Assembly: GCA_030710605.1 (NCBI GenBank)
Contig: CP092880.1
Span: forward strand, 19,839,791 to 19,903,790
DNA: 64,000 nucleotides
Origin: Cordylochernes scorpioides
Lineage: Eukaryota > Arthropoda > Arachnida > Pseudoscorpiones > Chernetidae
Direction of reading: 5' to 3'
The translations under genes and the position numbers were made by a program. The stretch's first letter is position 1. Each line of letters starts with the position of its first letter. The notes below the pieces were generated by a model that worked only from the letters and a program-made list of their open reading frames with translations, was not told where the DNA came from and made no database searches. Positions 5,978 through 63,126 of the stretch are shown here, one piece after another.

Positions 5978-7045
5978 TCATTTTCTCACTGGAAAGTGAA
6001 GATTTTCTCTTGCCCACTGGTGAACGGTCAGCATCCTTTCAAATGGGGGACCTACATTGTAGATCTTCACCTTTTCTTTGGATTTTGGTGTCGGTCCCTT
6101 TCTCTCTGAACATCGTGTACAGTTTCTGCACCATTTTTCAACATCAGTTCGACTTCCTGGCCAACAAAATCTTTCTCTAACTTTGGCCAGTGTTTTTCTG
6201 ATGCCGAAGTGATCTCCCGTGGGACTGCTATGCATCTCCTGGAGAGCCAAAGGTACATGAGATATGGGTAACACCAACTTCCAGGATTCATGCTTTCCAT
6301 CCTCGCTCTTCCATTTCTTGTATAAGACTCCATCTCGCAGGGTCAAAGAATTCCAGAGGCGCCAGAGACTTTTGGTTTTAGGACTGTGCGAGGCCACATC
6401 TTCCCTGGATGGTCTTTCATCTGATTCCTTCCAATTTATCACCGGCAAGAGATCTCGGTCTTCACGTTGAGCTTTTCTTAAAGCTTGGCCAGTCCAGTGT
6501 TGCTCTTCCACTTCATCTCTTTCTTGCACTGTAACTTGCCTTACGCAAAATCTCTCTTCAGCACGAGCACAATGTCCACTTTGTGGAACACACGGCCTTC
6601 TTGATAAGGCATCAGCATTATCTTTCTGTCTCCCGTGGTTCTTCTTAGGGGCTGAGGTGGTTTTAAAATTTTCCGGACAGTTTCTTCTCATGTGGCCATA
6701 TTGCCCACATTTCCAGCAGTCGGTATCACTGCGTTGTTTTACTTTTCTGGGGCAAGTTGGAGAAATGTGATCAAGGACTCCACAAGTCCAGCAGCGGCCC
6801 CTTTTTCTTTCAGGCTTATGCTTAGAGTTATCTGGACAGTTTTTCCTTATGTGACCATTTTTTCCACATTTCCAGCAACCTGTATCACTACACTGTTTTA
6901 CTCTTCGGGGGCAATTTGGAGACATGTGATCATGGGCTCCACAGGTCCAACAGCGACCCCTTTTTCTTTCTGGATTATCCAATTTAACTTGTATATCCAC
7001 GCGATAACTTTCTATTGTGGCCTGTTGGGCAGCTTCATGCTTCAT
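5978..7045 (-). CDS. Gag zinc knuckles joined to integrase zinc finger (internally deleted Gypsy), copy A
   Basis: This 355-codon frame is a deletion product. It begins with the gag C-terminus, with four CCHC knuckles (C-x2-C-x4-H-x4-C) that look like a duplicated pair: CWTCG..DH and CWKCG..GH, twice. It then jumps straight to NADALSRRP, which normally closes the RNase H domain, so protease, reverse transcriptase and RNase H are absent. An integrase H2C2 zinc finger follows (HSSPTGDHFGIRKT then CRNCTRCSERKGP). At GPPFERM, the start of the integrase core, it jumps again to the far C-terminus, and a frameshift ends it. The protein would bind nucleic acid but has no catalytic domain. Confidence 0.75.
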   Translation of the reverse strand: MKHEAAQQATIESYRVDIQVKLDNPERKRGRCWTCGAHDHMSPNCPRRVKQCSDTGCWKCGKNGHIRKNCPDNSKHKPERKRGRCWTCGVLDHISPTCPRKVKQRSDTDCWKCGQYGHMRRNCPENFKTTSAPKKNHGRQKDNADALSRRPCVPQSGHCARAEERFCVRQVTVQERDEVEEQHWTGQALRKAQREDRDLLPVINWKESDERPSREDVASHSPKTKSLWRLWNSLTLRDGVLYKKWKSEDGKHESWKLVLPISHVPLALQEMHSSPTGDHFGIRKTLAKVRERFCWPGSRTDVEKWCRNCTRCSERKGPTPKSKEKVKIYNVGPPFERMLTVHQWARENLHFPVRK

Positions 7046-32134: not shown

Positions 32135-32327
32135 CTTGTTCTTCTTGTTCCAAAATCACTTTATTAGGTATCGCTCAACAAGAGCAACCTAGTTTATGAT
32201 AATTGAAACAATGAATAATATGTGAAGGTTATTCACATATTAAACAAAATGTTAACGAGAGATTCAATCCCGGTTCATGACTGTCGGGAATCGAGGGTGT
32301 TACCCACTCGTCCATTGACTCTTATTT
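32135..32327 (-). mobile_element. SINE family II, copy b
   Basis: This is the duplicate of 690-883 with the same target duplication, now GCATATTT versus GCATGTTT. The tRNA-like head and LINE-like tail are present. Confidence 0.75.
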
Positions 32328-33987: not shown

Positions 33988-34477
33988 GAACCTGTCAAAA
34001 CCCAGGAGGCATAGACAATTTAAACAATTTTATTGATTCTTTTAATAATATTTTACAAAGGTGGTAAAATAAAATAGTAAAATAGTAAAAGGGTATATAA
34101 AATATAGGGGAATATCTATATAATATAAAATTGAATGTCTGTCTGTCTGTTTGTCTGTCTGTTTGTTTGTACTCTATAGATTCAAAAACCATACATCCAA
34201 TCGCCGTGAAATTTTTGGATATTATTAGGTATATCACCGGGAAGGTTTTTGAAAAATAATTTCATGAATATCTTGAATAACCTTAGAGTTACTTCCAGAT
34301 TTGTAGATTTAACTCGCAAGCAGCACCCCCATTGTGACGATGATAACAAGTTTTCTTATCACTAAGTTTGTTATCTTAAATATTATTTATCAAAAGTAAG
34401 ATTATCTCAGGATGACACGGCAATGTGACACGGGAAAAAATGTTCACTAGATAAAACTATGATTTTCTATATGATAT

Positions 34478-34976
34478 AAAAAGCCAACAATGAAGAGTGA
34501 ATGCAATATAAAAAGCCAACAATGAAGAATGAATGTAAGATAAAAAGCCAACAATGAAGAGTGAATGTAATATAAAAAGCCAACAATGAAGAATGAATGT
34601 AAGATAAAAAGCCAACAATGAAGAGTGAATGTAAGATAAAAAGCCAACAATGAATAGAAAATGTAATATAAAAAGCCAACAATGAAGAATGAATGTAAGA
34701 TAAAAAGCCAACAATGAAGAGTAAATGTAATATAAAAAGCCAACAATGAAGAATGAATGTAAGATAAAAAACCAACAATGAAGAGTAAATATAATATAAA
34801 AAGCCAACAATGAAGAGTGAATGTAAGATAAAAAGCCAACAATGAAGAGTAAATGTAATATAAAAAGCCAACAGAGTGAATGTAAGATAAAAAGCCAACA
34901 ATGAAGAGTGAATGTAATATAAAAAGCCAACAATGAAGAATGAATGTAAGTTAAAAAGCCAACAATGGAGAGTAAA
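34478..34976. repeat. 32-bp minisatellite, about 16 copies
   Basis: The core is AAAAAGCCAACAATGAAGAR, followed by a variable TGAATGTAAKAT. Copies alternate GAT and TAT variants. Since 32 is not a multiple of three and the unit lacks minus-strand stops, all three minus frames stay open for 130-158 codons. Confidence 0.95.
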
Positions 34977-36218: not shown

Positions 36219-36926
36219 TTTTTTTTTTTTACAATTTCTAAAACTCATTTATATATTATACAAGAATGACATCCACGGCGCCAATTTATAAGTGTAACGA
36301 ATAGTATTTGAATAAAAGCATTTAATCGGGTAAAACCCGGGCGTTGCCCGGGTCATTCGTATATAATAATTGTATAAACGAATGCAAGACAAAATCACCG
36401 CGAATGTTTCTTTTTTTTTAAGGCAATTTCTTTTTAAGGCAATTATCGTTATTTATCGTTAATTTTTGTTTCGATTTTATTGAAAAAAAAAACGATATGG
36501 TGCCTTTAAAAAATGATCTTTATTACTATGCAGTTTTCTATTTAGTCAATGTACCTAAGTTCATGTTGCAAATGTAATTATCTCTATCGATTTAGTAGGT
36601 GAAATGCAAAAAAAAAAAAAAAATCGACATGATGAAATCTTTATGAAAATTCACATTTTTATTTTTATATATTCAAGACACACACAGTTTGGGGCGGGAC
36701 GTTTCACAAGAGAGACATCCACGGCGCCAATTTATAATTGTAACGAATAGTATTTTAATTAAAACATTTTAAAAACACACAGTTTGGAACGGGACGTTTC
36801 ACAAGAGTGACATCCATGGCGCCAATTTATAATTGTAACGAATAGTATTTGAATTAAAACGTTTTTAAAATATATGCGTACTCGGGTAAAACCCGGGCGT
36901 TGCCCGGGCCATTCGTCTAGTATATA

Positions 36927-41887: not shown

Positions 41888-42184
41888 TTAGGACTGATCG
41901 TCCCGAACAGTCCATTGTACTGGAACAGTACCCCTGAAGGGTGCCAACCGGTTGTAGTGCACCACTTTGGGTTTAGAAGTCCGGGTCTTCTGAATTCGAT
42001 AGATGACATCATTGAGACACTTGATGATCTTGTAGGGACCTTCCCACTGATACTGAAGTTTAGGAGAAAGTCCTTTCTTCCGTTGAGGATTATGGAGCCA
42101 AACCATTTCACCCTCTTTGAAAGTCTTGACGTTGTACCTGCCTTTCATTTTCTCACTGGAAAGTGAAGATTTTCTCTTGCCCAC
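41888..42184 (-). pseudogene. Integrase C-terminal GPY/F remnant, copy B
   Basis: The 98-codon frame includes MKGRYNVKTFKEGEMVWL and QWEGPYKIIKCLNDVIYRI. Its start overlaps the end of the 42145-43212 frame in another register, showing the frameshift at the second deletion junction. Confidence 0.7.
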
Positions 42185-43212
42185 TGGTGAACGGTCAGCA
42201 TCCTTTCAAATGGGGGACCTACATTGTAGATCTTCACCTTTTCTTTGGATTTTGGTGTCGGTCCCTTTCTCTCTGAACATCGTGTACAGTTTCTGCACCA
42301 TTTTTCAACATCAGTTCGACTTCCTGGCCAACAAAATCTTTCTCTAACTTTGGCCAGTGTTTTTCTGATGCCGAAGTGATCTCCCGTGGGACTGCTATGC
42401 ATCTCCTGGAGAGCCAAAGGTACATGAGATATGGGTAACACCAACTTCCAGGATTCATGCTTTCCATCCTCGCTCTTCCATTTCTTGTATAAGACTCCAT
42501 CTCGCAGGGTCAAAGAATTCCAGAGGCGCCAGAGACTTTTGGTTTTAGGACTGTGCGAGGCCACATCTTCCCTGGATGGTCTTTCATCTGATTCCTTCCA
42601 ATTTATCACCGGCAAGAGATCTCGGTCTTCACGTTGAGCTTTTCTTAAAGCTTGGCCAGTCCAGTGTTGCTCTTCCACTTCATCTCTTTCTTGCACTGTA
42701 ACTTGCCTTACGCAAAATCTCTCTTCAGCACGAGCACAATGTCCACTTTGTGGAACACACGGCCTTCTTGATAAGGCATCAGCATTATCTTTCTGTCTCC
42801 CGTGGTTCTTCTTAGGGGCTGAGGTGGTTTTAAAATTTTCCGGACAGTTTCTTCTCATGTGGCCATATTGCCCACATTTCCAGCAGTCGGTATCACTGCG
42901 TTGTTTTACTTTTCTGGGGCAAGTTGGAGAAATGTGATCAAGGACTCCACAAGTCCAGCAGCGGCCCCTTTTTCTTTCAGGCTTATGCTTAGAGTTATCT
43001 GGACAGTTTTTCCTTATGTGACCATTTTTTCCACATTTCCAGCAACCTGTATCACTACACTGTTTTACTCTTCGGGGGCAATTTGGAGACATGTGATCAT
43101 GGGCTCCACAGGTCCAACAGCGACCCCTTTTTCTTTCTGGATTATCCAATTTAACTTGTCTATCCACGCGATAACTTTCTATTGTGGCCTGTTGGGCAGC
43201 TTCATGCTTCAT
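42145..43212 (-). CDS. Gag zinc knuckles joined to integrase zinc finger, copy B
   Basis: This 355-codon frame is almost identical to 5978-7045, with the same two deletion junctions, so the deletions predate the duplication. Four CCHC knuckles, the RNase H tail NADALSRRP and the H2C2 finger are all present. Protease, RT, RNase H and most of the integrase core are missing. A gag frame ends at 43209 in an ATGA overlap with this one. Confidence 0.75.
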   Translation of the reverse strand: MKHEAAQQATIESYRVDRQVKLDNPERKRGRCWTCGAHDHMSPNCPRRVKQCSDTGCWKCGKNGHIRKNCPDNSKHKPERKRGRCWTCGVLDHISPTCPRKVKQRSDTDCWKCGQYGHMRRNCPENFKTTSAPKKNHGRQKDNADALSRRPCVPQSGHCARAEERFCVRQVTVQERDEVEEQHWTGQALRKAQREDRDLLPVINWKESDERPSREDVASHSPKTKSLWRLWNSLTLRDGVLYKKWKSEDGKHESWKLVLPISHVPLALQEMHSSPTGDHFGIRKTLAKVRERFCWPGSRTDVEKWCRNCTRCSERKGPTPKSKEKVKIYNVGPPFERMLTVHQWARENLHFPVRK

Positions 43213-55863: not shown

Positions 55864-56709
55864 ATAGATCTATGTTTGTTATTATTCTCCAACAATAATA
55901 ATAATAATTTTATAACTACAAAATATGCAAAATGTTTTTTATGTCTAATTATAGTCTTTGAATTGCTTATATGCTAATCTATAATATTCAACTACTTATG
56001 TGCAAAATTTGCCGATTGTTTATCCAGTACTTTTGGTGAAGAACAGTGACATCAAACTTGGACAAGAATAGATTCAGTAAGGAGTGAATGTTTGCCCCGA
56101 AAATAATCCCTATATTTATAAAAGTCAGTGTATGTATGTGTGTTTGTTCCTATGTCGGCTATACACGTCCACAATACGTAACTAATCTGACTGGAATTTT
56201 AACAGTATATATAGTAGAATCTGGAAAAACTTATAGTGAAAATTTCAGGTCTCTATCCCGAATATTCTTCGAGTTATTTGCAAATTGCGTTGCAAATTTG
56301 CCCTTTCGCTCGCAAGTAGCGCCTCTAGCGGTAAAGATGGGAGATAATATCAGTTGACCTAATGTACATGTAAAACGTGTTTTAACACAGGACGTAGAGA
56401 AAAATCTGGAAGAGATATTTATCGTATTTTTAGCCAAGAAAAATTGAAATTGACAGATTCTGGGCATAAATAGTTGTTTTTTAGTTTAAAAATTATGATG
56501 ACAATATTTCTGTATCATATTTGATTATCAGATACAAAATCATATCGGGAAAAATTCCAAAAAGCAGAGACCACGGGTGAAGCCAGTTTATTTTTAGTAT
56601 GTAGGGACAAAATTCTAACAGAAAAACATTCATTCGAGCAGAAGACACAAAGCCAGATCATCTCTCTATAATAATATCGCTTATCAGACAGTTTGGAGCG
56701 GGACGTTTC

Positions 56710-56891
56710 TGGTTCAAATCACATTAATAGGTACCGCTCAGCAAGAGCAACCTAGTTCATGATAATTGAAACAGTTGTTAATATGTGAAGTTTATTCACA
56801 TTTTAAACAAAATTTTAACGCGGGATTCAATACCGGTTAATGACTGTCGGGAATCGAGGGTTTTACCCACTCGTCCACCGACTTTTATTAT
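56710..56891 (-). mobile_element. SINE family II, copy c
   Basis: It is 182 bp with its 3' tail on the left and its tRNA-like head on the right (minus strand GACGAGTGGGTAAAACCC, then a box-B-like GGTATTGAATCCCG). GCGGGACGTTTC lies directly at both ends (56698-56709 and 56892-56903). Confidence 0.85.
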
Positions 56892-57099
56892 GCGGGACGT
56901 TTCCAGTTCAGTTCCAGTTCAAAAATAACTTTATTAGGTGCCGCTCAAAAAGAGCAACCTAGCTTATGATATTAACAATGAATTATATGTACACGTTCTT
57001 CACATTGACAGGGTATTCATATCTTTACAAGGTTAGAGCCTGGCGCGCAGGCTTTAAATCGGTGTGTTCTCTTTTCTAATATGTTCTTTTATTTTTTAT

Positions 57100-59839
57100 T
57101 TATTTATTTTTATTTATTTTTTTTTCTTTAACGTGTTTTTTCTTACGATTTTTCCATTTTTCTACATTTGTTCTCAATCGATATAGGAGTTGCCTTGGCT
57201 TTGGTTTCCTTCTCTTCAGTTCTTGTTTGTAGTTACAGGCTTCTCCGAATGTAATATTTTCGAGATTTTCAGATTTATCGTAAAAGTTGAAAGCTTGTTT
57301 CATTATGAAATCATTTATATTTTCTAAATTGAGGTCCTTTCTGATGATACTACTTCTGACAAACCAAGGGGCACCTATTATTTTCTTTAATACCTGGTGT
57401 TCGAAACTTTCGAATTTTTTCAGTGTAGTTTTGTTTGCGGTTATGAAGACTGGGTGGCCGTAAGTTAGGATTGGTCTTATAATAGACGTGTATATGGTAC
57501 GTTTGCAGTGTAGGGATAGTTTGCTCTTGTTCCCTAAAAATAGTGCTAGTCGGTGCTGGGCTGCTTTTGCGAGGTTTATTCGGTTTTGCACGTGTTCTTG
57601 GAAGGTCAGGTGTTGATCAAGGATGACGCCCAGGTAGCGGACGCTGTCCTTCCATTTTATGGATTCATCAGGGAAGCCTAGATCTTCTAAGGGCTTCTTC
57701 ACTTTTAGTCTTTTGTCTGAGAAGAGTATAGCTTCGGTTTTTGTGGGTTCAATTTAATCCGCCATTCGTCGCACCAAATATTAACGAATACCGGTGCTTC
57801 TTGAAGTTTGAGATAGATGGTATCGAAGTTGAGGCTGAGCCTAGAGTTGCGGCGTCGTCTGCGTATAGATGTAGGGACATTCCTTTGGGGCAAGGGTAGT
57901 CATCAATAAAAATATTGAAGAAGGTGGGGCCGATGACTGACCCTTGAGGGACTCCTGCTCGAATTTTCCTTGGGGTTGACAGAACATCTTTGACTTTTAC
58001 TCTAAAGTTTCTGTCACAAAGGAAGCTTTTTGTCATTCGGATGATGTCTCCAGGTAGGTTCTTTTTTGCCATTTTATACAAAAGGGCCTCGTGCCAAACT
58101 TTGTCAAATGCCTTGGAGATGTCAAAGAAGATGCCTCCTGTTAATTGTTTTGATTCCATGGCCTTTCTTATCTTCTCCGTGACGACCACAAGTTGATGAA
58201 GGGTTGAGTGTTTTTGCTGGAACCCGAATTGTTCGGGCCTGAGGGGATGTTCGTCGCTGAGTGCTTTTTTTATTCTTCTTAAAATGATTCTTTCGAATAG
58301 TTTGGAGGTGACAGGTAGGAGGGAAATGGGTCTATAACTTGCTGGGTCGTACTTTGATTTACCTTGTTTTGGTATGGGACAAATAATCAATGTTTTCCAA
58401 TTGTTCGGGAAGTATGCGAGTTTCAATGAGGCATTAAAAGTGCTGGTTAGTGATTCGAGAATATGGTTGGGCAGTAGTTTTAGCGCTTCGTTCGTGATTC
58501 CGTCGATGCCTGGGGCTTTTTTCTTAGGGAAGGTGTCAATTATTGCTTTGATTTCTCCAATGTTAGTGGGTTCCAGAGCTGTTTTGTTGTTTGTTTGGAG
58601 GTGTGCGGTGATTCTTTTGTTCAGATATATGTTCGAATATAAGGAGGTAGGAGGATTTGGGCTGAGCTGCTTTTCATAGGAGTCAGCAAGTGCTTCAGCT
58701 GCCTCCTCGGCTGTTAGTGTCAGATTGTTATTGGTTTTCACGATAATTTCTTCTTTCTTTGGGGCTGTGAGGCGTCTAATGGCCTTCCATACTGTCTGAT
58801 CAGATACGTCAAGGTTTTCTATGTAGGTGTCCCAGCTGGTGTTGTCGTTTTCTCTAGTAAGTTTTTGTGATTCTCTTCGTGCGGAAATGTACGCTTTTTT
58901 GTCGTTGGGGTCGCAAGTTTCTTTCATTTTTTTTCTTAGTCTGTTAGTTTTTCGTAATTTTTCTTTGATGTGGGCTGGATACTTTCTATCGAGGTCTTGT
59001 TCTTTATATTTTGTGGACTTTTGTAGATTTTGAATGATTTGGTCCTCAATGGAAGCTATGGAGTCGATTATTTCTTGCGGAGTTTCTGCGGTGTGCGCTG
59101 GGGGTTGGGTGTTTTCCATTTGGTACTTAAAGAGGGCCCAGTCGATGATTTTGATTGTTGTGTCGGAGCGGGTTATATTATAGTCTTGTAATATTAGAAG
59201 GACTGGGAGGTGATCAGACGTCATCTCGTGGAGGACTTTTGAGTGAACGGTCTGACTCAGATTTTTGTGGATTGCGATGTCCAAGATGTCGGGTGGTGAG
59301 TCATGTGTCGGTTCATCTGGGTAGCTTAAATCCAGGTTGAGGAATTCGACAACCTTTTGTAGGATCTTGCCATTTGGATTGGCGGAGAATGAACCCCAGG
59401 TTGGATTCTTGCAGTTGCGGTCTCCGGCTAGGATTGTTGGAGTGTTGGTTTTGAATATATTGTAGATGTCCTTTGGGTCAAGAGGCGTGTTTGGGGGCTT
59501 GTAGCAGGAGTATATGTTCATTGTTGTTCCATTTTTGTCTTTGATTGTTATTCCTGTGGTTTCCAAATTCAGGCAAGTGCTTTGGATGGGAACACAGTAA
59601 TATTTCTTATGGATGAAAATTGCTGTGCCTCCGCCCTGTCCAGACAGTCTGTCATTCCGAACGGTGTTGTAGTTGGGGATGTTCATCCTGTGACAGGGTT
59701 TGAGCCAGGTTTCGGAAATTAAAATTATGTCTATGTCGTGGTCGTTCAGAAATTCAGTGAATTGTTGCCTTTTATTCCGAAGGCTACATGCGTTCCAATG
59801 AATGATTCGGAGTTTATTCTTTTTGTCTTTTGCGTTCAT
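57100..59839 (-). pseudogene. Jockey-like ORF2: endonuclease and reverse transcriptase, two frameshifts
   Basis: The first 696 codons are open. An APE endonuclease spans roughly residues 1-225 (IIHWNACSLRNKRQQF, ILISETWLKP, GGGTAIFIHKK, AGDRNCKNPTWGS, SDHLPVLL). RT follows, with KKKAPGIDGITNEALK, RPISLLPVTSKLFERI, GVPQGSVIGPTFFNIF and the catalytic YADD near residue 659. Compared with the second copy at 61342, single-base deletions near 57828 and 57740 shift the frame; the RT thumb then continues at 57702-57100 (YLGVILDQHLTFQEHV). There is no RNase H domain. Damage is light, so the element was recently active. Confidence 0.9.
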
Positions 59840-61287
59840 TGAGAACCTATGGTGGCGAGAACGTTCCTCACTATGGTGGCAATGATCTTTGGATCGCTGA
59901 GAGCCTTTTCGATGGCACTCTCGATGGGGCTTTGCTTGGAGATTTTCAGGGGAATACTTTTAGGTTGGTTTGCGCAGGTTTTTTCCTTATTTCCTGTGGT
60001 TTGAGGGATTTTTGCATTGATGGGTACCTTGGAAGGTTCTTTTTGTGCATTAGGGCGTGGGTTCTTTTGACTGGGTATATCTTTATTTATTTTTTTGTAG
60101 AGTGGACAACCACGCCAGTTTGCCGTGTGCTGACCCTGGCAGTTAGCGCATTTTGGTAGGACTTCTTTTTGTTTAGAGCATTCGGAGGTGAAATGGTTCT
60201 CTCCGCACTTGACACATTTGGGGGTTTCTCTGCATTCAAACTTTGAATGTCCAAAGTTTTGTCATCTGTGACATTGGCCTGGACCTTTGGGGGCCCTATA
60301 GGCCTCGACTCGGCACTTCATGTCGCAGATATCCGTTATGTTGTAGATATCTTTGTTCTTAGGCGTTTTGGGAAGAGTAACCTGGATTAGTGGGAGCTCT
60401 TCCTTTGTTCCCGCCCTGCGTAGTCTGACAATTTTTGTCATATAAAATCCCTTGTTTTCTAAGTCCTCTTGGATTTCAGGAATCGTAATGCAGCAGTCGA
60501 GGCCCCTGACTACAATTCTGAGGTTCTTTTCTTCGTCAAGTATTTTAAAATGGAATGTGTAGTGACGTTTTTCTAGCCACCTGGTTGCTGTGCGGTAGTC
60601 CGTCACCGAATGAGTCTGGACGTTTATGTGGCGCCCAGATGTGGAGAATTCAGGTTTTTTCTGCGTGCAGTTAATGAGTCCTTCTCTTAGTCCAGACCAT
60701 TCAGTTACCCCACTGATTTTGATCGGTGGTATTCTTATTTTTGGGTTAGGGGTAGGGTTGTTAGGTCCTTTATCTGGGTTTTCCGTGTCTTTGTTAAGCG
60801 GGTTCGATTTTTTAGGGTTCTGTTTAGGATTTGAGTTCCTATTTGGAGTGACTTCGATTTCCATATCGATTTTCTCTTTAGCTTGTGGTTTTTCTGGCTG
60901 TTTATTTTTTTATGTTGGTTTAGAGTATGTGGGAACTCTTGAAATCTGTTTGGGACACCAGGCAATATTTTGCGTGGCATGTGATTCTTTTATGGCTTCT
61001 GGGGATGTTACTCTCGGGCGCTTCAAAGGAGCTTTGCTTGTATTTTCAACAAATTCTGAACGAGTTTCTTTTAGTTCTTTTTCATAGAAGTCGAGGAAAT
61101 TTATTAGCTCAGCGAAGGTGCTTTCAACAGAGCTACAGAAATTTTTCATAGCTTTGGAGTCTTCTTCGTTCTTCATTTTCGGGCATTCTGGCAATTTCCA
61201 GATATAATATTTTCGTGTGCCTACCGAGTATCTGGGGTTTGTGAAGTTGGTGTTGGTGGCTTCTGATGCAACTTGGGTTTCATCCAT
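59836..61287 (-). pseudogene. Jockey-like ORF1 (gag-like) with zinc knuckles, two nonsense codons
   Basis: One continuous register of 483 codons from ATG 61287, with a TAA at 60910-60912 and a TGA at 60262-60264 that replaces a knuckle Cys. It has an acidic/basic N-terminal region, a PRE_C2HC-like segment (TDYRTATRWLEKRHYTFHF, ICDMKCRVEAYRAPKGPGQC), then knuckles (CVKCGENHFTSEC, CANCQGQHTANWRGC). These proteins bind element RNA. Apart from the two stops the frame is clean to its end at 59836. Confidence 0.85.
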
Positions 61288-61341
61288 GATTTCTTGGTTT
61301 CGTTGGCTCTTTTCTGTTCCTGCCGTTTTGCGGGACGTTTC

Positions 61342-62562
61342 AGTTCAGTTTCAGTTCAAAAATAACTTTATTAGGTGCCGCTCAAAAAGAGCAACCTAGC
61401 TTATGATATTAACAATGAATTATATGTACACGTTCTTCACATTGACAGGGTATTCACATCTCTACAAGGTTAGAGCCTGGCGCGCGGTCTTTAAATCGGT
61501 GTGTTCTCTTTTCAAATGTTTTGTTATTTTTTATTTATTATTTATTTATTATTTTTCTTTAACGTGTTTTTCTTAAGATTTTTCCATTTTTCTACATTTG
61601 TTCTCAATCGATATAGGAGTTGCCTTGGCTTTGGTTTCCTTCTCTTCAGTTCTTGTTTGTAGTTACAGGCTTCTCTGAATGTAATATTTTCGAGATTTTC
61701 AGATTTATCGTAAAAGTGGAAAGCTTGTTTTATTATGAAATCATTTATATTTTCTAAATTGAGGTCCTTTCTGATGATACTACTTTTGACAAATCATGGG
61801 GCCCCTATTATTTTCTTTAATACCTGGTTTTCGAAACTTTCGAATTTTTTCAGTGTAGTTTTGTTTGCGGTTATGATTGGTCTTATAATAGACGTGTATA
61901 TGGTACGTTTGCAGTGTAGGGATAGTTTGCTCTTGTTCCCTAAAAATAGTGCTAGTCGGTGCTGGGCTGCTTTTGCGAGGTTTATTCGGTTTTGCACGTG
62001 TTCTTGGAAGGTCAGGTGTTGATCAAGGATGACGCCCAGGTAGCGGACGCTGTCCTTCCATTTTATGGATTCATCAGGGAAGCCTAGATCTTCTAAGGGC
62101 TTCTTCACTTTTAGTCTTTTGTCTGAGAAGAGTATAGCTTCGGTTTTTTGTGGGTTCAATTCAACCCGCCATTCGTCGCACCAAATATTAACGAATACCA
62201 GTGCTTCTTGAAGTTTGAGATAGATGGTATCGAAGTTGAAGGCTGAGACTAGAGTTGCGGCGTCGTCTGCGTATAGATGTAGGGACATTCCTTTGGGGCA
62301 AGGGTAGTCATCAATAAAAATATTGAAGAAGGTGGGGCCGATGACTGACCCTTGAGGGACTCCTGCTCGAATTTTCCTTGGGGTTGACAGAACATCTTTG
62401 ACTTTTACTCTAAAGTTTCTGTCACAAAGGAAGCTTTTTGTCATTCGGATGATGTCTCCAGGTAGGTTCTTTTTTACCATTTTATACAAAAGGGCCTCGT
62501 GCCAAACTTTGTCAAATGCCTTGGAGATGTCAAAGAAGATGCCTCCTGTTAATTGTTTTGAT
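61342..62562 (-). mobile_element. Jockey-like LINE, 5'-truncated second copy
   Basis: It is 1221 bp and almost identical to 56.9-58.2 kb. It holds the 3' UTR, RT thumb and RT palm (GVPQGSVIGPTFF, YADD, with no frameshift at the two sites broken in the first copy). A TGG-to-TGA change ends the frame at 61794, and an in-frame deletion of about 24 bp lies near 61877. It is flanked by GCGGGACGTTTC at 61330-61341 and 62563-62574. The RT frame is truncated in mid-domain, as expected for incomplete reverse transcription. Confidence 0.9.
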
Positions 62563-62574
62563 GCGGGACGTTTC

Positions 62575-62756
62575 AAATTCACATAAATAGGTACCGCTAA
62601 GCAAGAGCAACCTAGTTCATGATAATTGAACATTGTGTAATATGTGAGGGTTATCACATATTAAACAAATTTTAACGCGGGATTCAATCCCGGTTCATGA
62701 CTGTCGGGAATCGAGGGGTTACCCACTCGTCCTACGACTTATTTGTTTTTTTTTTT
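62575..62756 (-). mobile_element. SINE family II, copy d
   Basis: It is 182 bp with the same orientation and layout as copy c. An extra T run is present at the 5' end (62744-62756). GCGGGACGTTTC on both sides (62563-62574, 62757-62768). Confidence 0.85.
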
Positions 62757-62768
62757 GCGGGACGTTTC

Positions 62769-62947
62769 CTGGTTCAAATTCACATAAATAGGTACCGCTC
62801 AGCAAGAGCAACCTAGTTCATGATAATTGAACATTGTGTAATATGTGAAGGTTATCACATATTAAACAAATTTTAACGCGGGATTCAATCCCGGTTCATG
62901 ACTGTCGGGAATCGAGGGGGTTACCCACTCGTCCTACGACTTGTTAT
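62769..62947 (-). mobile_element. SINE family II, copy e
   Basis: It is 179 bp and nearly identical to copy d. The left junction is GCGGGACGTTTC; the right junction is GGGACGTTTC at 62948-62957, after which the Helitron-like sequence resumes as ACAAGAGTGACAT. Confidence 0.85.
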
Positions 62948-63126
62948 GGGACGTTTCACAAGAGTGACATTTACGGCGCCAATTTATAATTGTTACGAAT
63001 AGTATTTGAATAAAAACATTTAATAGGGTAAAACCCGGGTGTTGCCCAGGTCATTCGGCTAGTATTTTAATAAATGTCCATTAATTAAACTTTTACTTGT
63101 AGAAAAATCGGGCTAAGCAGTGTACA

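Follow-up and report, generated by a model that had tools for sequence, protein, structure and literature searches.

Repeated same-site insertion of a Jockey-like LINE and its SINE in the pseudoscorpion Cordylochernes scorpioides

Introduction

Targets of long interspersed nuclear elements (LINEs) are usually described either as one fixed site, as for R1 and R2, or as nearly random, and the sequence-specific LINEs (R1, TRAS/SART, Utopia and the tRNA-directed LINEs) have a favoured target within a repeat. Serial insertion of retroposons is also known from the tandem or tail-directed Alu elements of mammals, which insert into the A-rich tail of a resident copy. Here we analyse a nest of five retroposons in a 64,000-nt stretch of the Cordylochernes scorpioides genome (C18:19839791-19903790, contig CP092880.1; hereafter the window), in which copies of a Jockey-like LINE (LINE-A) and of a short interspersed nuclear element (SINE) occupy one 12-bp site of a Helitron-like repeat. 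The closest described arrangement is that of the Drosophila 28S rRNA genes. There (Stage and Eickbush 2009, PMC2718515), R1 copies lie at one site with a 14-bp target duplication between them, the authors infer that further copies entered the duplication adjoining the 5′ end of a resident one, and the normal target is one ribosomal site, with non-28S copies also reported.

Same-site re-use in the pseudoscorpion is real, well supported and more general than first noted, and is a variant of the known R1 behaviour at many non-ribosomal sites. As in the R1 arrays, units in one orientation with a target duplication between them make up the window nest and the stacks at loci L037, L038, L044 (right copy degraded), L045 and L009. 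Unlike in the R1 arrays, many unrelated sites are used, LINE-A, its sister LINE-B and the SINE are mixed in one stack, and a dispersed repeat is a favoured target. The 28S target that characterizes R1 was not among the targets found, which are a repeat of 19,107 copies and other sites, no rRNA search having been made; the probable mechanism of the nest would match the published tandem R1 arrays, while naming the element R1 would go beyond the data. R1 was the sole direct precedent recognised in our literature search. The first-pass annotation of the window had called such site selection unusual if confirmed, which may be right for this group of LINEs, but R1 is a direct precedent (PMC2718515). 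The genome shows a middle case, in which a dispersed LINE and its SINE heavily re-use individual sites that are unrelated to one another. Same-site insertions need not each be a single historical event, a caution for the use of retroposons as markers of descent.

Structure of the nest and its landing site

The first-pass annotation had described, from left to right, a SINE, a LINE, a truncated LINE and two further SINEs, all with the 3′ end at the left and separated by exact copies of GCGGGACGTTTC, with GGGACGTTTC closing the array, and both the units and the target copies were recovered as described (Table 1). The five units lie head-to-tail in one orientation, each flanked by the same 10-12 bp repeat, of which the rightmost copy has 10 bp only, against 12 bp for the others. 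When the window was scanned with up to 2 mismatches to GCGGGACGTTTC, 11 matches were returned, whereas shuffled sequences gave a mean of 1.72 and a maximum of 5, and none of the 100 shuffles reached 11. The first LINE measures 4.43 kb, and the truncated one (~1.22 kb) is 95.4% identical to it. SINE 2 and SINE 3 are 97.7% identical, and SINE 1 carries 8 differences in 172, its difference from SINE 3 not being significant. The nest resembles tandem Alu insertions in its series of same-orientation retroposons of presumably one machinery, but the joint here is an exact copy of the target, and no poly(A) tail was seen.

Helitron 3′ ends are recognised by a hairpin and a CTRR end, and the right arm of the host repeat, inspected by eye, has a hairpin followed by CTAG. 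The two flanks of the nest, when joined, form a continuous copy of an intact repeat at 36.7 kb, where the intact pre-insertion site noted earlier was found once exactly and once with one difference, with host-repeat arms that match. In the assembly searched (2.62 Gb, 24 contigs), exact copies of the intact site, AGTTTGGRGCGGGACGTTTCACAAGAG, number 19,107 (control 0).

An inverted duplicate of the whole nest, with all five units, lies ~82 kb away on the same contig (L031, ~C18:19984900-19991200), so the two were treated as one nest counted twice. The first LINE copies of the nest and of L031 are ~99% alike, as in a palindromic duplication. This duplicate, together with a truncated joint that recurs in clusters on contig C3 (L084, L085, L087 and L088) as a sign of unequal exchange, could speak for a nest produced by assembly error or by recombination among repeats. 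We regard such an origin as extremely improbable, given that the window units are different elements with different truncations. The architecture was also seen, with different units, on several contigs, which makes an artefact of assembly unlikely.

Table 1. Positions in the window of the nest units, the target copies, the host repeat and the LINE reading frames
Feature	Position	Strand	Remark
Intact (empty) landing site, another copy of the repeat	36694..36705	+	
Second empty landing site, adjacent tandem subunit (ACGGGACGTTTC)	36789..36800	+	one difference
Left target copy, GCGGGACGTTTC	56698..56709	+	in the host repeat's own left arm (AGTTTGGA-GCGGGACGTTTC)
SINE 1, 3′ end at left	56710..56891	-	most diverged nest SINE
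Target duplication 2	56892..56903	+	T directly before
LINE-A, near full length, 3′ end at left	56904..61329	-	GTTCC/GAACTG-repeat tail
LINE open reading frame 2 (ORF2) part, APE-type (apurinic/apyrimidinic) endonuclease and reverse transcriptase	57749..59839	-	interrupted; further piece in another frame, 57100-57702
LINE ORF1 part with PRE_C2HC match	60262..60864	-	interrupted
Target duplication 3	61330..61341	+	
LINE-A, 5′-truncated	61342..62562	-	
Target duplication 4	62563..62574	+	
SINE 2	62575..62756	-	3 differences absent from the other SINE copies compared, except its own duplicate
Target duplication 5	62757..62768	+	
SINE 3	62769..62947	-	without such private differences
Right target copy, GGGACGTTTC (10 bp)	62948..62957	+	followed by the host repeat's right arm ACAAGAGTGACAT
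Host repeat right arm	62958..63062	+	GC hairpin ~63030-63051, CTAG 63059-63062; Helitron-like terminus by eye

Preference for one site of the host repeat

Junctions were counted genome-wide with exact patterns, and the counts are lower bounds. The pattern GACGTTTC-N4-18-AAAAATAAC gave 36 matches, 21 of them with the LINE tail after GACGTTTC and 15 without (control 10), the latter of which look like chance matches. For the SINE, at least 59 left and at least 76 right junctions were found at GACGTTTC (control 0 for both), compared with a chance yardstick of ~0.016, which is rough, having been derived from 4,429 SINE copies of another exact pattern. Among 90 exact LINE-A 3′ ends found with a flank-free pattern, the GACGTTTC junction was present in 10, where ~0.0003 would be expected by chance at the exact 27-base site and ~0.001 at the bare 8-mer. 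The preference for this site is real, as the first reading of the window had proposed. These 10 ends include four from the nest and its duplicate and correspond to seven separate places, three of which (two on C6 and C10:1163976) are known by GACGTTTC alone, with nothing read to the left of it. Queries containing GCGGGACGTTTC yield loci that over-represent the GCGGGACGTTTC site, and flank-free queries favour young copies. The favoured target within a repeat is shared with the sequence-specific LINEs; in contrast to them, it holds only about a tenth of the exact LINE copies here, and the other LINE copies with flanks read sit at other sequences.

The same nucleotide of the host repeat was hit separately on C1, C2, C8, C9, C10, C18 and C24, with differing 5′ truncations. 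The duplications span 11-15 bp, with 15 bp at L007 and L030, 13 bp at L018, L019 and L036, 12 bp at L033, 11 and 12 bp at L032 and 11 bp at L034 (with one mismatch in L036 and in the 12-bp duplication of L032). Because both the truncations and the duplications differ, these are separate insertions rather than the spread of one filled repeat, although several of the locus pairs are plain segmental duplicates.

Stacking at unrelated targets

Stacking is not confined to the host repeat. In a flank-blind sample (query inside the element, best 40 of 698 candidates, which favours young copies), LINE or SINE ends lay no more than ~60 bases left of the 3′ junction in 15 of the 40 young LINE copies. 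Eleven of these are among the 26 new junctions (L059, L060, L062, L066, L067, L070, L072, L073, L074, L076 and L079) and four among the 14 at previously sampled places (the window twice, its duplicate once, and L045). The GACGTTTC site accounted for 5 of the 40 junctions, at three separate places when the nest and its duplicate are taken as one. The 26 new junctions were read on the 3′ side only, which places a shared far-end duplication beyond those data, and at L067 no spacer is visible between neighbour and tail. L011, with a SINE ~60 bp away and another duplication, was left out of the stack count, and L089 out of the scripted count, though its left neighbour is LINE-A by eye.

The same duplication is present at each joint in the stacks at GTCGATATCTC (L037), TTCAATTGAAA (L038), TTGTGTTAAAG (L045), GAGTAAATATC (L044) and GCGGGACGTTTC (L009 and the window). 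Stacks also form at AAATTCTGGGTTC, GCCGTTTCGG and GTGATACTGAA, and joints with one repeated spacer were found in clusters on C8, C3 and C16. Exact LINE ends adjacent within 6 kb were on the same strand in 15 cases and on opposite strands in none, with 0.019 expected if uniform, several of the pairs being copies of each other (C3 clusters and C18 nests). A logo of the junction flanks, which the annotation had put forward as a check, displayed no general enrichment of GACGTTTC; the strongest positions were +4, where 10 of 13 flanks have A (0.75 bit), and -1, where G is absent (0.48 bit). Its input was 25 upstream and 13 downstream flanks, hand-entered and in part from biased loci, with nick positions ambiguous by 1-3 bases; the 26 newer flanks are outside it. 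With this weak logo and with stacks at unrelated targets, a primary motif common to all stacks has no support so far. It is the stacking that is general, rather than any one motif, and GACGTTTC is one site of many.

Several other arrangements were seen around these loci. LINE joints with the same TTTGCTGGGTTC spacer occur at two places, L040 on C1 and L039/L074 on C6. Counting L039 and L040 (ATTTGCTGGGTTC, C6 and C1) as independent hits is doubtful: on C1 the outer flank beside the left LINE is another one, and the two LINEs there may derive from a retrotransposed read-through dimer RNA. L069 and L077, at the same site in a repeated sequence, may represent one insertion carried along. At L049 (2270-5970), a LINE and a SINE sit at the same position of two neighbouring, similar satellite-like monomers. 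Two stacked-LINE clusters with the same left flank lie at C3:24886-24948 kb (L082-L088), and within them the truncated joint mentioned above recurs four times.

Ages and order of the stacked units

Age was approximated as divergence from the column majority of the copies compared (46 rows for LINE-A, 19 for the SINE and 8 for LINE-B), a measure in which subfamily differences can mimic age. From left to right (A, LINE-A; B, LINE-B; S, SINE), divergence was B 3.4%, A 1.0%, A 1.5% and B 0.6% at L037; B 3.3%, S 2.3%, A 1.3%, S 1.7% and B 0.7% at L038; B 5.7%, S 8.2% and A 1.05% at L044; A 1.7%, S 1.2%, A 2.0% and B 0.6-1.9% at L045; and A 2.1% and S 2.4% at L009. In the window, the SINEs diverge by 4.7, 4.1 and 2.3% and the LINEs by 1.3 and 1.2%, in the same order. 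The left unit was older at p<0.001 in four of ten comparisons of our own choosing (L037 B, L038 B and L044 twice, the L044 comparisons being made across families), and the other six were not significant. Judged by divergence, some stacks were built over time, with the left unit the older.

These ages bear on the two routes suggested in the first-pass annotation, repeated nicking at a renewed site and a tandem array made by template jumping. On the one hand, four of the five window duplications are the same 12 bp, and apparent restarted tails are present in L042 (2180-2225) and L045 (6470-6560), where short repeats of the LINE tail at a joint or close to it give the impression that reverse transcription had begun anew on the tail; both could be read as traces of one event, in which RNAs are copied serially at a single nick by iterative priming or template jumping. 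On the other hand, a complete target duplication lies between units, and the units of L037, L038 and L044 differ several-fold in divergence, which makes a one-event origin very improbable; simultaneous insertion was rejected on the unit ages. Repeated nicking at a renewed site, by comparison, agrees with the duplications and with the GACGTTTC preference.

As to the direction of growth, GTCGATATCTC occurs four times at L037, each copy starting with G, while the left flank, ATCGATATCTC, starts with A, and these lead bases fit each duplication having been copied from the preceding one. The ages and the L037 lead bases together favour growth to the right, new units entering through the duplication next to the 5′ end of the resident; growth may have been exclusively to the right. 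Left growth, by insertion at the resident's 3′ tail, is disfavoured by the ages. The private differences of the window SINEs, left to right ~4, 3 and 0, are suggestive only. The T before the inner duplications was dropped as proof of right growth, since an extra T is common at SINE 5′ ends.

Proposed mechanism and the rate of second hits

We consider it fairly probable that the five units of the nest were stacked by separate target-primed insertions of one machinery, the target being renewed by each duplication. The machinery would be that of the Jockey-like LINE (LINE-A and its sister LINE-B), shared by the SINE with its related 3′ end. The element endonuclease may nick after ...GACGTTTC or another favoured sequence, the RNA 3′ end would be copied from the nick, and a second cut 10-15 bp away would give rise to the target duplication. 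Each insertion would leave the site complete, since the sequence required by the endonuclease would be contained in the duplicated ~12 bp together with one of the original flanks. The likeliest entry point for a new unit would be the duplication that adjoins the 5′ end of the previous one (the right side in the window), and stacks would grow away from the oldest unit. The choice made by the endonuclease, rather than chromatin or attraction by a resident, would be the main cause.

The frequency of second hits was approached from the 19,107 exact empty copies, which offer a natural control population for measuring whether occupation alters target strength. Exact filled junctions amount to ~0.5% of the exact empty sites. 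When left and right SINE junctions were linked within 8 kb, 29 of the 59 left junctions had a partner. One link, C1:11888329 (7.0 kb), was discarded since its two junctions belong to different loci, and merging of the remaining 28 by eye gave 21 loci. Sixteen of these measure 172-180 bp (one SINE), two measure 116 and 218 bp, and three are stack-like, namely the window nest, which was read, a C22 locus of 365 bp (two SINEs) and C1:106.29 Mb (1.9 kb), the latter two being classed by length only. Among host-repeat loci with both ends known, 2 of 11 are stacks (the window and L009). If hits were independent and fell at the observed rate, or at three times that rate, the stack counts would have p values of 2e-5 to 0.003, or of 0.05-0.15 if the read nest is the sole stack among the 21; both sets are our own groupings, and the window nest is in both.

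Several observations weigh against a stack built by sequence choice and growing to the right. Sequence preference alone fails to predict the rate of second hits (3/21 and 2/11 versus ~0.5%), and near-identical empty sites persist ~0.1-1.2 kb from filled ones. The other sites have no strong motif; by eye, TC precedes the tail CAG in 13 of the 26 new junctions, possibly reflecting a short preference or an overlap of tail and target. Two age comparisons lean weakly the other way (L037 A and L045 A, p 0.27 and 0.61), the place of the left LINE-B in the L038 stack is uncertain, its 3′ end being outside the sequence read, and the T before all four inner window duplications is weak evidence. Of two duplicated loci on C3, only one carries a further full-length LINE at the left end, which may stem from left growth or from loss by recombination, and the C3 clusters decide nothing.

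Two further explanations address the choice of site. According to the first, a resident copy makes its own junction attractive, for example by RNA-DNA pairing or by protein binding at the shared 3′ end or the 5′ junction, and a weak site becomes strong once occupied. Second hits do look far commoner than first ones (two of the three stack-like loci by length only), stacks are found at sites without an evident common motif, and the terminal stretches of LINE-A, LINE-B and the SINE (~55-75 nt) are related. With the 3′ tail as bait, however, the newest unit is expected at the left, the reverse of what the significant age comparisons say, and the same sequence was seemingly hit separately in paralogues (the host repeat, the TTCAAAATTCTGGGTTC flank on C1 and C3, and the L049 monomers), although recombination could blur the C1 and C3 TTCAAAATTCTGGGTTC-flank cases. 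We hold resident attraction to be rather unlikely as the explanation. According to the second, the chromatin or replication state exposes certain copies and the endonuclease then re-uses the best local sequence, which would explain why a few of the 19,107 empty-type sites were hit several times. We think this unlikely: near-identical empty sites lie ~0.1-1.2 kb from filled or stacked ones at L004, L007, L009, L035 and L036, so that regional accessibility alone seems a poor account, and it is the same nucleotide, not its neighbours, that is re-used. Separate target-primed insertions at a renewed target remain our preferred account, and some feedback from occupation is possible. Tentatively, a first insertion could even make an ordinary site hot, with a second hit tens of times likelier than a first on an identical empty target, in which case positive feedback rather than a fixed motif would build the scattered head-to-tail stacks.

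Identity of the LINE and the SINE

A profile search matched the ORF2 of LINE-A to Exo_endo_phos_2, Exo_endo_phos and RVT_1 (PF14529, PF03372 and PF00078), and the ORF1 frame at 60262-60864 to PRE_C2HC (PF07530, E 5.5e-10), which we take to be a mark of Jockey-type gag; the reading frames are interrupted. No RNase H match was obtained in the four LINE pieces scanned. The named PDB matches of the reverse transcriptase were L1, R2 and unnamed reverse transcriptases. Jockey-clade LINEs usually end in poly(A) or an A-rich 3′ end, but the LINE-A tail consists of GAACTG/GGAACT repeats. The earlier designation as Jockey-like is therefore plausible by domains (PRE_C2HC ORF1, APE-type endonuclease and reverse transcriptase, no RNase H match) but not by the tail, and because the tail is not poly(A) we keep to "Jockey-like" and withhold clade membership.

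LINE-B is a sister of LINE-A with roughly 70% identity. The SINE and the LINE have a 55-nt block of their 3′ region in common (78% identity). A B-box-like GGGATTGAATCCC was read by eye in the SINE head, where ARAGORN calls no tRNA. A search of phage records with the LINE gave no match, and four protein relatives labelled Cordylochernes scorpioides matched parts of the query at 93, 95, 66 and 55% identity. The annotated pseudoscorpion protein P0014 combines a LINE-A endonuclease match with helicase domains (PF05970), which suggests a LINE-A copy within a helicase-coding element, annotated as a gene.

Other repeats in the window

An older SINE insertion with the duplication GCATATTT occurs twice with similar flanks, at 697-882 and 32142-32326, which shows that the sequence around it is duplicated within the window as well. 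Nearly identical frames of 355 amino acids with CCHC-like knuckles lie 36.2 kb apart at 5978-7045 and 42145-43212 and are, by eye, copies of one long terminal repeat (LTR)-type element. The minus strand holds a short repeat (LLAFYI.F.LHCWLFIL) in three overlapping frames at 34447-34933.

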